Positions 4,739 through 10,996 of a stretch of 36,062 bases of DNA are shown piece by piece (within the stretch, counting starts at the first letter, position 1; each line of letters opens with the position of its first letter). The notes under the pieces are model-generated. The model was not told the DNA's origin and made no database searches. It saw only the letters and a program-made list of their open reading frames with translations. The position numbers were made by a program, and so were the translations under genes. Origin of the DNA: a virus; IMG/VR virus record IMGVR_UViG_3300044632_002118, positions 1 through 36,062 of that record, one strand, 5' to 3'.

Positions 4739-4887
4739 GATTTTTTCTCCCATCTTTTTTTTCTGGCTTCCATTAGGCGCTCGGTGCGCTTGGCGATTTC
4801 GGCGGTGGTGAGTTTCTTCTTTTTCCCGGCGGCAAGTTTCCCAAGGGCAACAGCTGCTGGGTTTTTCTTCGGTGGTTTTTGTTTCAT
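4735..4887 (-). CDS. Basic 50-aa protein coupled to the PLD gene
   Basis: Begins MKQKPPKKNPAAVALGKLAAG, followed by a lysine-rich stretch and the helix LTTAEIAKRTERLMEARKKRW. Strongly basic, probably nucleic-acid binding. ATG 4887 is followed by a frame whose TGA overlaps the PLD start as ATGA. The alternative reading that extends the PLD frame back to 4897 gives a low-quality Cys/His-rich N-terminus. A possible promoter (TTGACA at 4919-4924 region, weak TAGAAA downstream) lies before it. Confidence 0.65.
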   Translation of the reverse strand: MKQKPPKKNPAAVALGKLAAGKKKKLTTAEIAKRTERLMEARKKRWEKKS

Positions 4888-4943
4888 CACCGCTCAATTT
4901 CTAACAAAAGGGCTTTTGTGTCAAGCAAGTTTTTTTATTTTTT

Positions 4944-7283: not shown

Positions 7284-7488
7284 GAGAGTGTCCAAAGTTG
7301 AATCCCGATCGCTGGCGTGCGGCCTCGATCTTCCGTCGTTCGGGCGTCTTGGCCCAAAAGCGATCGCAGGCGGCGGACATCTCCTCGAGCATGTTGGCGA
7401 GCCAGGCTTCTCGGAATTCCCGATAGCCCATCGTCATCTGGATAATCTTCCCGCGCCCTCCGAATTTCGGCTTTTTGCGTTTGCTCAT
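7276..7488 (-). CDS. Small basic protein, 70 aa
   Basis: Starts MSKRKKPKFGGRGKIIQMTMGYREF. Contains a helix (REAWLANMLEEMSAACDRFWAKTPERRKIEAARQ). The start overlaps the RuvC-like stop by ATGA and its 3' end overlaps the HTH gene by 8 bases. Function unknown. Confidence 0.55.
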   Translation of the reverse strand: MSKRKKPKFGGRGKIIQMTMGYREFREAWLANMLEEMSAACDRFWAKTPERRKIEAARQRSGFNFGHSHE

Positions 7489-7919
7489 GGCTTGGCCGTC
7501 CTCCGGTTGAATTCGGCAATCAGGAGCGCGTCCGCGGTGGCATGCGTGATCTTCAAAGTCGGGAAAAGCTCTTGCGCCCGGCGCTTGCTCACATTCTTAT
7601 CGCCCTTGGTCAAACACCCCATTGCCTTCTGCCATGCCTGCGGGCGGATTCGCTCGTAAGGCACCCGCAGAGCGGTCAGAACCGCTTGGAGGCGTCCATA
7701 CCCCTCCCCGAATGTGAAAGCCGATTTAACGCCCATCTGCGGCGAGGAGTGGACTAACTCCAGCACCGCCCGAGGCTCCGCCAGCGAAATGGCATCGCTG
7801 AGGAGGTCGATCAGGTCTCGGTCGGTCTCGGGCATTTTGTGCGCCCATGCGTCGCCGAGGGTTGGGATGAATGCGATACCGCCGGAAAGTCCGGGGTCTA
7901 TTCCTATGTAGAGTTTCAT
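7485..7919 (-). CDS. RuvC-like Holliday junction resolvase
   Basis: A 144-aa protein of the phage RuvC/RNase H-fold resolvase type. GIDPGLSGG at residues 6-14 carries the first catalytic Asp, LELVHS the second acidic position, and ATADALLIAEF near 130 the C-terminal Asp. Length fits (RuvC about 150-175 aa). It would cut branched replication or recombination intermediates before packaging. Its start overlaps the helicase stop by ATGA, placing it in the replication operon. Confidence 0.82.
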   Translation of the reverse strand: MKLYIGIDPGLSGGIAFIPTLGDAWAHKMPETDRDLIDLLSDAISLAEPRAVLELVHSSPQMGVKSAFTFGEGYGRLQAVLTALRVPYERIRPQAWQKAMGCLTKGDKNVSKRRAQELFPTLKITHATADALLIAEFNRRTAKP

Positions 7920-9908: not shown

Positions 9909-9945
9909 GCAAACTGCGGCGCTCCGTGAAGCGCCGTGTGTTTGC
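9909..9945 (-). other. Hairpin H2 of the hairpin-pentamer element
   Basis: On the minus strand the outer stem is GCAAAC/GTTTGC, the internal loop ACA/CA, and the inner stem CGGCGCT/AGCGCCG (7 bp, perfect) with a 6-base loop. The outer stem and internal loop match hairpin H1; the inner stem is entirely different in sequence yet still pairs. It directly follows array A in the minus direction. Confidence 0.75.
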
Positions 9946-10040
9946 CAAGCCGTGCCTTGCCTCGCCATGCCTTGCCCAGCCAAGCCCGGCCTTGCCGCGC
10001 CGCGCCATGCCTGGCCTCGCCAAGCCATGCCTTGCCAAGG
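9946..10040 (-). repeat. Pentamer array A, (GCNNG)n
   Basis: Nineteen consecutive 5-bp units, 18 of which fit C-N-N-G-C on the plus strand (GCNNG on the minus); the middle two bases vary freely (TT, AT, AA, TC, GT, GG, CG). A 5-bp period cannot be a codon repeat, and all frames are open only for lack of stop combinations. It leads in phase into hairpin H2. Confidence 0.85.
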
Positions 10041-10079
10041 CAAACTGCTGCACCTCCGAAGAGATGCAGTGTGTTTGCC
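10039..10079 (-). other. Hairpin H1 of the hairpin-pentamer element (UUCG loop)
   Basis: On the minus strand GGCAAAC pairs with GTTTGCC, followed by internal loop ACA/CA, inner stem CTGCA/TGCAG, then CTC-TTCG-GAG. The C(UUCG)G tetraloop forms only in RNA read from the minus strand, which is the transcribed strand here. Same architecture as H2 with a different, compensated inner stem. Confidence 0.78.
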
Positions 10080-10158
10080 GCGCCCAACCCCGCCGCGCCA
10101 TGCCCAGCCCCGCCGCGCCCCGCCACGCCCCGCCGCGCCTCGCCCGGCCTCGCCGCGC
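10079..10158 (-). repeat. Pentamer array B, (GCNNG)n
   Basis: Sixteen 5-bp units, 15 fitting C-N-N-G-C on the plus strand, richer in C/G at the variable bases than array A. It leads in phase into hairpin H1. With array A and H2 it makes two tandem [array-hairpin] units filling the gap between the genes at 10168 and 9889. Confidence 0.85.
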
Positions 10159-10167
10159 ATTGTAAAA

Positions 10168-10728
10168 TCATTCCCATTCAACCATGTAGCGGCCAAAGAT
10201 TGGGCGAAAGGTTCCAAGCCCCAAGATTCCACCTTGGTCCAGCATGGTTTGGAGGCATGCGGATGTGAGCAAGGTGTTTTCTTGGTGCGTGAGTTGGATT
10301 TTGATTTTCCAACCCGTCGGGAGCATCGGCCGCTCTTTAGGGTTAGGCACTCCATCCTTGACCCTTGCGACATGCTGTAAAATCTCGATCCTTGGGTCTT
10401 GAATTGTGTAAGGCGTGCCCTCCGCATCGAGGATTTGGGCGTTAAGCGGATCCTCTCCAGTCGCCTCGATTGAGACAAAAGACATGACTCCAAGAGCAAC
10501 ATCACGCGCCTGCTTTCCGTAAAAACGCTTGGCCACCGATGGCGTGTTTTGTGCTGCCAGTAGCGAATAAAGGTTGAGGACGGGAATGACCAAATGGCCC
10601 GACGGTGTGGTGTAGAATTTTTCCATCACCGGCAGTTTCGTTTTGTTGTCTCCCGCGTAGCGGTCGAACATGATGGGCCGGATGCCGCGAAGCGTGGCCG
10701 TAAGTGTAGTTGTTTTGATTTCCTTCAT
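10168..10728 (-). CDS. Unknown early protein ending in a Gly-rich FRP/FGR motif
   Basis: A 186-aa protein (MKEIKTTTLTATLRGIRPIMFDRYAGD). The opening beta-strand and the C-terminal GGILGLGTFRPIFGRYMVEWE-like segment recall phage proteins with a ferredoxin/RAMP-like layout (a strand start, then a Gly-rich loop with Arg near the end). I cannot name the family with confidence. It lies between the GIY-YIG/SSB genes and the repeat element, so a role in DNA replication or recombination is plausible. Its first 227 bases overlap the 3' part of the GIY-YIG frame. Confidence 0.6.
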   Translation of the reverse strand: MKEIKTTTLTATLRGIRPIMFDRYAGDNKTKLPVMEKFYTTPSGHLVIPVLNLYSLLAAQNTPSVAKRFYGKQARDVALGVMSFVSIEATGEDPLNAQILDAEGTPYTIQDPRIEILQHVARVKDGVPNPKERPMLPTGWKIKIQLTHQENTLLTSACLQTMLDQGGILGLGTFRPIFGRYMVEWE

Positions 10729-10996
10729 ATTTTTTTATCGTTTCTAATGCCTCACTGCGTGAGAGTTTGAACCACTCGCCATTGCCGCTCGGTTTCACGA
10801 GCCGCAGGTGGGCAATGGCGAGGTGGATCCTCTTTTCCAAAATGGTCTTTTCTCCTGGCTTGGCCTCAACCCAGCCGAGGATTTCAAGCGCCCGAGGAGA
10901 CCACACATGAGCCGCCCACAGCCGAAGCCGTAAGTCGTTCTCCGTGCAGCCGATCTTGCACTCGCTTCCATTGTGAAAAAAATAAACCCGGTCCAT
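10502..10996 (-). CDS. GIY-YIG-type (T5orf172/MUG113-like) protein
   Basis: Start MDRVYFFHNGSECKIGCT at 10996. Residues 3-85 follow the T5orf172/MUG113 pattern: VYFF...CKIGCT, RLRLWAAHVWSPRALEILGWV, a Glu-rich helix (EKTILEKRIHLAIAHLRL) and GEWFKLS. These GIY-YIG relatives are presumed nucleases; here the usual first Tyr-Ile-Gly pair is degenerate. The domain ends near residue 95 (LETIKKYEGNQ); the remaining 70 codons overlap the next gene in another frame and look like read-on sequence, so the true product may be functionally about 95-100 aa long. Confidence 0.66.
   Translation of the reverse strand: MDRVYFFHNGSECKIGCTENDLRLRLWAAHVWSPRALEILGWVEAKPGEKTILEKRIHLAIAHLRLVKPSGNGEWFKLSRSEALETIKKYEGNQNNYTYGHASRHPAHHVRPLRGRQQNETAGDGKILHHTVGPFGHSRPQPLFATGSTKHAIGGQAFLRKAGA

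Follow-up and report, generated by a model that had tools for sequence, protein, structure and literature searches.

Pentamer arrays with covarying hairpin tails as very probable guide RNAs of a VIPR locus in an uncultivated phage

Described systems and the present locus

VIPR (Viral Interference Programmable Repeat) is a system in which a phage RAMP protein of about 20 kDa, Vipr, is guided by vrRNAs, each made of 9–16 YNNGG repeats, with GGY fixed and NN hypervariable, followed by a structured 3′ tail (PMC13142463). The NN dinucleotides pair with double-stranded DNA, one base being skipped per unit, and the targets are typically competing mobile elements (PMC13142463). This preprint (April–June 2026), the sole public description among the literature we searched, characterises two closely related systems, those of Escherichia phage SUSP1 and of a Pseudomonas fulva prophage, in terms of expression, formation of the ribonucleoprotein, repression and use against competing phages. 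Seven types have been published, their roles vary, and the accessory genes vap1-6 are predicted to act on DNA, nucleases being named as accessory proteins of some types (PMC13142463). Here we consider an element on the minus strand of a virus record from IMG/VR (IMGVR_UViG_3300044632_002118; "the window" is the whole stretch analysed, 36,062 nucleotides), in which two arrays of pentamers are each followed by a hairpin. The two units are very probably vrRNAs of a phage-borne VIPR, with vipr directly upstream and a gene for a GIY-YIG domain protein further upstream. The preliminary description of this DNA knew of no named element with such a build; the name exists (vrRNA of VIPR), and the locus stands out by its tail and partner gene.

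The closest described relatives are the type II systems of SUSP1 and P. fulva. The locus shares with them a phage-borne setting, a small RAMP protein of the same family, several vrRNAs per locus, tandem YNNGG repeats with fixed GGY and hypervariable NN, a structured 3′ tail and a putative accessory gene adjoining vipr. It differs in that its repeats are GGC, whereas those of SUSP1, whose own GGTNN vrRNAs are readable beside its vipr, are mostly GGT; in addition, the first array follows the vipr stop codon after 11 nt, the arrays lie head to tail, and the accessory gene is of the GIY-YIG type. With Class 1 CRISPR-Cas (types III and VII; Cas7/Csm3) the locus has in common the RAMP fold with a glycine-rich loop and a guide RNA with a variable and a structured constant part, and an oligomeric RAMP backbone is expected. 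However, it has neither a CRISPR array nor a cas operon, the guide information is non-contiguous, and vipr is its single RAMP gene, with no other RAMP among the neighbouring genes scanned. Membership of Class 1 was rejected, as there are tandem pentamers and two non-identical hairpins rather than identical repeats with contiguous spacers. TIGR-Tas, a compact RNA-guided system of phages with tandem guide arrays (PMC12045711), was considered as well and does not match, in that both the protein (here a RAMP) and the layout of the array differ.

Anatomy and conservation of the arrays and tails

Going along the minus strand, the vipr stop codon is followed by array B, hairpin H1, array A and hairpin H2 (Table 1). 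The final G of each array doubles as the first G of its hairpin, and the units measure 118 and 131 nt. One pentamer reads GGT and the rest GGC, which agrees with the GGY consensus of VIPR. Arrays and hairpins are present exactly as in the preliminary description, including the shared outer stem and the differing yet paired inner stems, with one correction: the inner stem of H2 gains an eighth pair (U-G), which closes its CACG loop. The longest in-phase run of GGCNN in the window is 19 units on the minus strand, against 3 on the plus strand and 3–4 in first-order Markov simulations; such lengths lie far beyond chance. Folding of the 250-nt strand is more favourable than that of its dinucleotide shuffles (z = -3.26).

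Table 1. Features of the locus (positions in the window)
Feature	Position	Strand	Description and basis
vipr	10168..10728	-	186-aa RAMP protein, phrog_4652; stop 11 nt ahead of the first pentamer
vrRNA1 guide array (array B)	10078..10157	-	16 YNNGG repeats; NN series GC GA CG GA GC GG GT GG GC GG TG AT GC GG TG GC; sequence, guide extraction, longest run against simulation
vrRNA1 3′ tail hairpin H1	10040..10078	-	Outer stem GCAAAC/GTTTGC, ACA/CA internal loop, 9-bp inner stem, UUCG loop; covariance model match (62.5 bits) and covariation
vrRNA2 guide array (array A)	9945..10039	-	19 YNNGG repeats; NN series TT AA AT TT GA CA AT GC GC AA CG TT TG AA AT GA AA AC TT; decoded site TTnAAnATnTTnGAnCAnATnGCnGCnAAnCGnTTnTGnAAnATnGAnAAnACnTT; sequence, guide extraction
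vrRNA2 3′ tail hairpin H2	9909..9945	-	Outer stem and internal loop as in H1, different 8-bp inner stem, CACG loop; covariance model match (55.5 bits) and covariation
Putative vap	10502..10996	-	N-terminal T5orf172/MUG113 (GIY-YIG superfamily) domain, Pfam 7.7e-8

In other contigs the same hairpin reappears 3′ of the arrays with different inner stems, and a pattern of three pentamers followed by GGCAAACACA was found in 37 other viral contigs. Covariation was assessed on 37 distinct tails drawn from the window and other viral contigs. In this set 98.7% of cells are paired, and double changes occur in 79 cells compared to 21.6 after shuffling (0 of 500 shuffles), with compensatory changes at seven of the nine inner pairs; when the partner is slid by 1–3 columns, pairing falls to 31–49%. 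RNAalifold, given no structure, recovers both helices save the terminal outer pair, and a covariance model of the tail has 71 matches in 99 sources. The inner stems are unlike even between two tails within one locus. The tail hairpins are conserved by structure rather than sequence, and the earlier proposal of a functional non-coding RNA on the minus, presumably transcribed, strand is supported by the compensatory double changes. A lack of homologues with such changes, which would have spoken against it, was looked for, and homologues with them were found.

The position of the units between two co-directional genes would also suit an ordinary feature acting in cis on the mRNA, such as intrinsic terminators or a leader controlling the downstream gene. 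We hold this to be very improbable: no terminator-like site was found between 9600 and 11600, promoter searches gave matches that were absent or at chance level, a search of the window against Rfam gave no match, and such a feature would leave both the pentamers and the link to a RAMP protein unexplained.

Pentamer arrays are also found more widely. A search with 10 pentamers alone returned at least 120 stretches from IMG/VR (contigs L051-L165), and uncultivated phages very commonly carry GGCNN arrays. In about 35 of the array loci the retrieved flank holds no recognisable Vipr, and a few loci (e.g. L102, L137 and L138) are simple repeats. One contig (L061, 6934-7138) has minus-strand arrays with tRNA-like 3′ ends (..GGTTCGACTCC..) close behind them, as if these acted as tails or processing sites. 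Searches of phage and plasmid records found no DNA similarity to the element, for which low-complexity filtering is partly responsible, and tblastn found no Vipr in such records. Host genomes searched by the array and tail motif gave 0 matches, and later 11 single-site chance matches without an array.

Vipr, its linkage to the arrays and the apparent turnover of guides

Profiles and predicted structure both identify the protein. The window Vipr family matches phrog_4652 in 67 of its 68 members, and SUSP1 Vipr matches the same family at E 1.4e-96. The family profile aligns with SUSP1 Vipr in hhalign (E 2.9e-30), and against the PDB it finds 36pp, "SUSP1 Vipr protein" (E 1.9e-37). The AlphaFold model (predicted local distance difference test, pLDDT, 93.7) has its best PDB matches in type VII Cas7 and Csm3 subunits (E 1.7e-6; 110 matches at E<=0.001), and the nearest viral model is annotated as a Cas-associated RAMP; the glycine-rich loop lies at the C terminus (GGILGLGTFRPIFGRY). 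The gene is Vipr, homologous to that of SUSP1.

For linkage we used 118 loci chosen by the array or tail motif, not by protein, in which Vipr, found by an iterated profile search, is encoded; it is the most widely shared gene of array-bearing loci. The strand of the array is that of vipr in 449 of 450 nearby arrays, and an array lies within 500 nt of vipr in 105 of the loci, at a median downstream distance of 33 nt. In the window the vrRNAs are intergenic and beside vipr. Array runs in relatives are mostly of 8–18 repeats. These counts bear on whether the element acts as DNA, as the preliminary description had thought possible: an origin of replication or a site of recombination in which the pentamers are steps for a binding protein and the hairpins form cruciforms. 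Though the inverted repeats and the nearby genes for a replication initiator, DnaB, Sak4 and an exonuclease would suit such a site, arrays that track vipr and its strand (449:1) do not, and neither do NN that are random between relatives while GGY stays fixed. Additionally, the tail loops, mostly UUCG, UACG or CACG, and the G-U pairs common among the kept tail pairs fit RNA rather than DNA, and we give the DNA element almost no weight.

Under the VIPR reading the guides can be compared between close relatives. For instance, the locus L034 encodes a Vipr 98% identical to that of the window, and in the last vrRNA of the two, identity is 1.00 in GGY and 1.00 in the tail and flank, but 0.29 in NN, which is chance level. 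Across orthologous units compared, GGY identity is 1.00 versus 0.17–0.55 for NN. Fixed GGY with replaced NN has the look of a guide region under turnover. The 5-bp spacing, or helical phasing, had earlier been proposed as what matters; it is instead GGY that is conserved in each unit, and the variable NN positions carry the information. Guide B (10078-10157) shares two seven-NN blocks with guides of L008 (1906-2100), one with each of two, while shuffled guides rarely reach six; it reads as the first part of one of these guides followed by the second part of the other. We infer from these blocks that guide B arose from, or gave rise to, the two L008 guides by recombination inside the arrays. 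Such a pattern may point to shuffling of guides among vrRNAs that lie in tandem.

Several observations weigh against the assignment to VIPR. The similarity of the window Vipr to SUSP1 Vipr as single sequences is weak (phmmer E 0.024), so that the link between them rests on the profiles and the fold. Array A, with 19 repeats, exceeds the published range of 9–16, though array B fits, and the tail is a nested two-stem structure that differs between the two units, not a pseudoknot as in SUSP1. Searches for targets were likewise unrewarding. An exact search of IMG/VR with 8 NN at a one-base skip, using three windows from each guide (six in all), gave chance-like matches without convincing extension; the best, 11 NN of guide B in a high-GC record (L506), runs across a tyrosine-integrase-like gene, out of register with its apparent coding frame, and breaks off on the 5′ side. 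A search with 13 NN and up to three mismatches in 388 genomes from the likely host phylum gave four weak matches only; guide A matches 13 NN with 3 mismatches in two homologous genes of likely Verrucomicrobiota genomes, with the flanking NN unmatched. Pooling 354 guides against 4.8 Mb of gathered DNA at skips of 0–3 did not recover the skip rule; an excess at skip 1 was rejected as a real signal, since it comes from loci that had themselves been retrieved with these guide patterns. The target searches neither confirm nor contradict a one-base skip for the lineage of the window.

With no target found in IMG/VR or the 388 genomes, and with the types and roles of VIPR known to vary (PMC13142463), the locus could be a VIPR with a role other than attack, regulating genes of the phage itself or of the host, or having arrays that no longer have a target. 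We consider this unlikely, since intact GGY with fully replaced NN in near-identical relatives speaks for diversifying guide use rather than for decay or a fixed target of its own, and the window itself is poorly matched by either guide (at best 22/38 for A and 22/32 for B).

As for the host, the window has phage genes for a terminase, lambda-type portal and tape measure and an integrase-like gene besides the replication genes named above, and among cultured phages Akkermansia phage Moulinsart has the closest terminase (34%). The likely host phylum is that of a Lentisphaerae metagenome-assembled genome; 5 of the 388 genomes from it (L453-L457) have Vipr, and in at least two (L455 and L456) GGCNN arrays lie beside it in the fetched flank. 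A further Vipr homologue is found in Gordonia phage Trine (L120, MH271318; 5000-5575), adjoining a GGCNN array (4885-4932) in which the GGCAC unit is dominant. This phage is a cultured actinophage whose host is the laboratory strain Gordonia terrae 3612, and it would be a convenient experimental system.

Tail, partner gene and a proposed mode of action

New here are the hairpin tail found with two distant Vipr lineages, the inner stems that vary within a locus and the GIY-YIG gene upstream. In a maximum-likelihood tree of Vipr, loci with the tail of the window fall into two distant clades, 20–27% identical to each other, and the starred branches force at least two changes; in both clades the tails lie just downstream of vipr. 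Two loci of the second lineage (L037 and L014) still have a gene with 78% identity to window 7485-7919, which shows that these phages are kin and implies an exchange of vipr or of the RNA block. The presence of one tail in two lineages may reflect exchange of the tail, exchange of vipr, or an ancestral tail that has been lost, or escapes recognition, in the lineages between. The sister clade of the window's Vipr has a second tail type (AGGGCGGC stem). This type, GGCAAACACAAGGGCGGCAC...GTGCCGCCCTCAGTTTTGC, is seen in L004, L006, L007, L015, L016, L021, L036 and L039, viruses whose Vipr, where complete, groups as sister to the lineage of the window; L006, L007, L015, L016 and L036 also have a second array about 1 kb upstream.

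The putative vap gene lies upstream of vipr and has homologues in 23 Vipr loci. Its distribution follows the Vipr lineage and not the tail, and it is found only with the lineage of the window. In all close relatives its frame stays open for about 224 nt into vipr (10502-10728). This overlap is probably incidental, since frame 2 of vipr is often open regardless and in L078 the GIY-YIG frame closes 23 nt in; alternatively, it may encode an overlapping C terminus of the GIY-YIG protein. The structure predicted for the protein from its single sequence (pLDDT 37.6) is unusable. In the second lineage (L033, L035, L010, L011 and L031) a 156–167-aa gene lies between two vrRNA clusters, the L033 copy having no Pfam match, and is possibly another accessory gene.

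By analogy with the SUSP1 and P. fulva systems, from which expression, assembly of the ribonucleoprotein, the one-base skip and repression are all carried over, the following mode of action may be proposed. The minus strand would be transcribed through vap, vipr and the two units, and separate RNAs would be released, each ending in its hairpin tail; co-transcription and release at the tail are suggested by array B starting so close behind vipr, by array A starting where the first tail ends, and by the lack of a visible promoter or terminator. Vipr subunits would align along the pentamers, gripping the GGY triplets and presenting the NN pairs, and the NN series would pair with double-stranded DNA bearing the same dinucleotides spaced by one skipped base. 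The complex would then repress the target, or instead cut it should the GIY-YIG protein take an active part; the likeliest targets are competing phages, prophages or satellites. We suggest tentatively that the tail (GCAAAC-ACA-[covarying stem, UNCG-like loop]-CA-GTTTGC) is a separable module recognised by some factor of the host or by another one of the phage, e.g. a processing RNase, and not by a lineage-specific Vipr, and that VIPR here may cut, not merely repress.

With this locus VIPR gains a lineage, from an uncultivated phage, in which the tail RNA is well defined and covaries and the putative partner is a GIY-YIG protein, and the covariance model can now be used to find such tails. The tails have not evolved in strict step with the Vipr proteins. 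Two points become open to test: which factor recognises the tail, and whether a VIPR borne by a phage can use a nuclease. Another question, posed by the near-complete replacement of NN between otherwise near-identical relatives, is how the guides are renewed; one of them resembles a recombinant between two guides carried by a sister phage.
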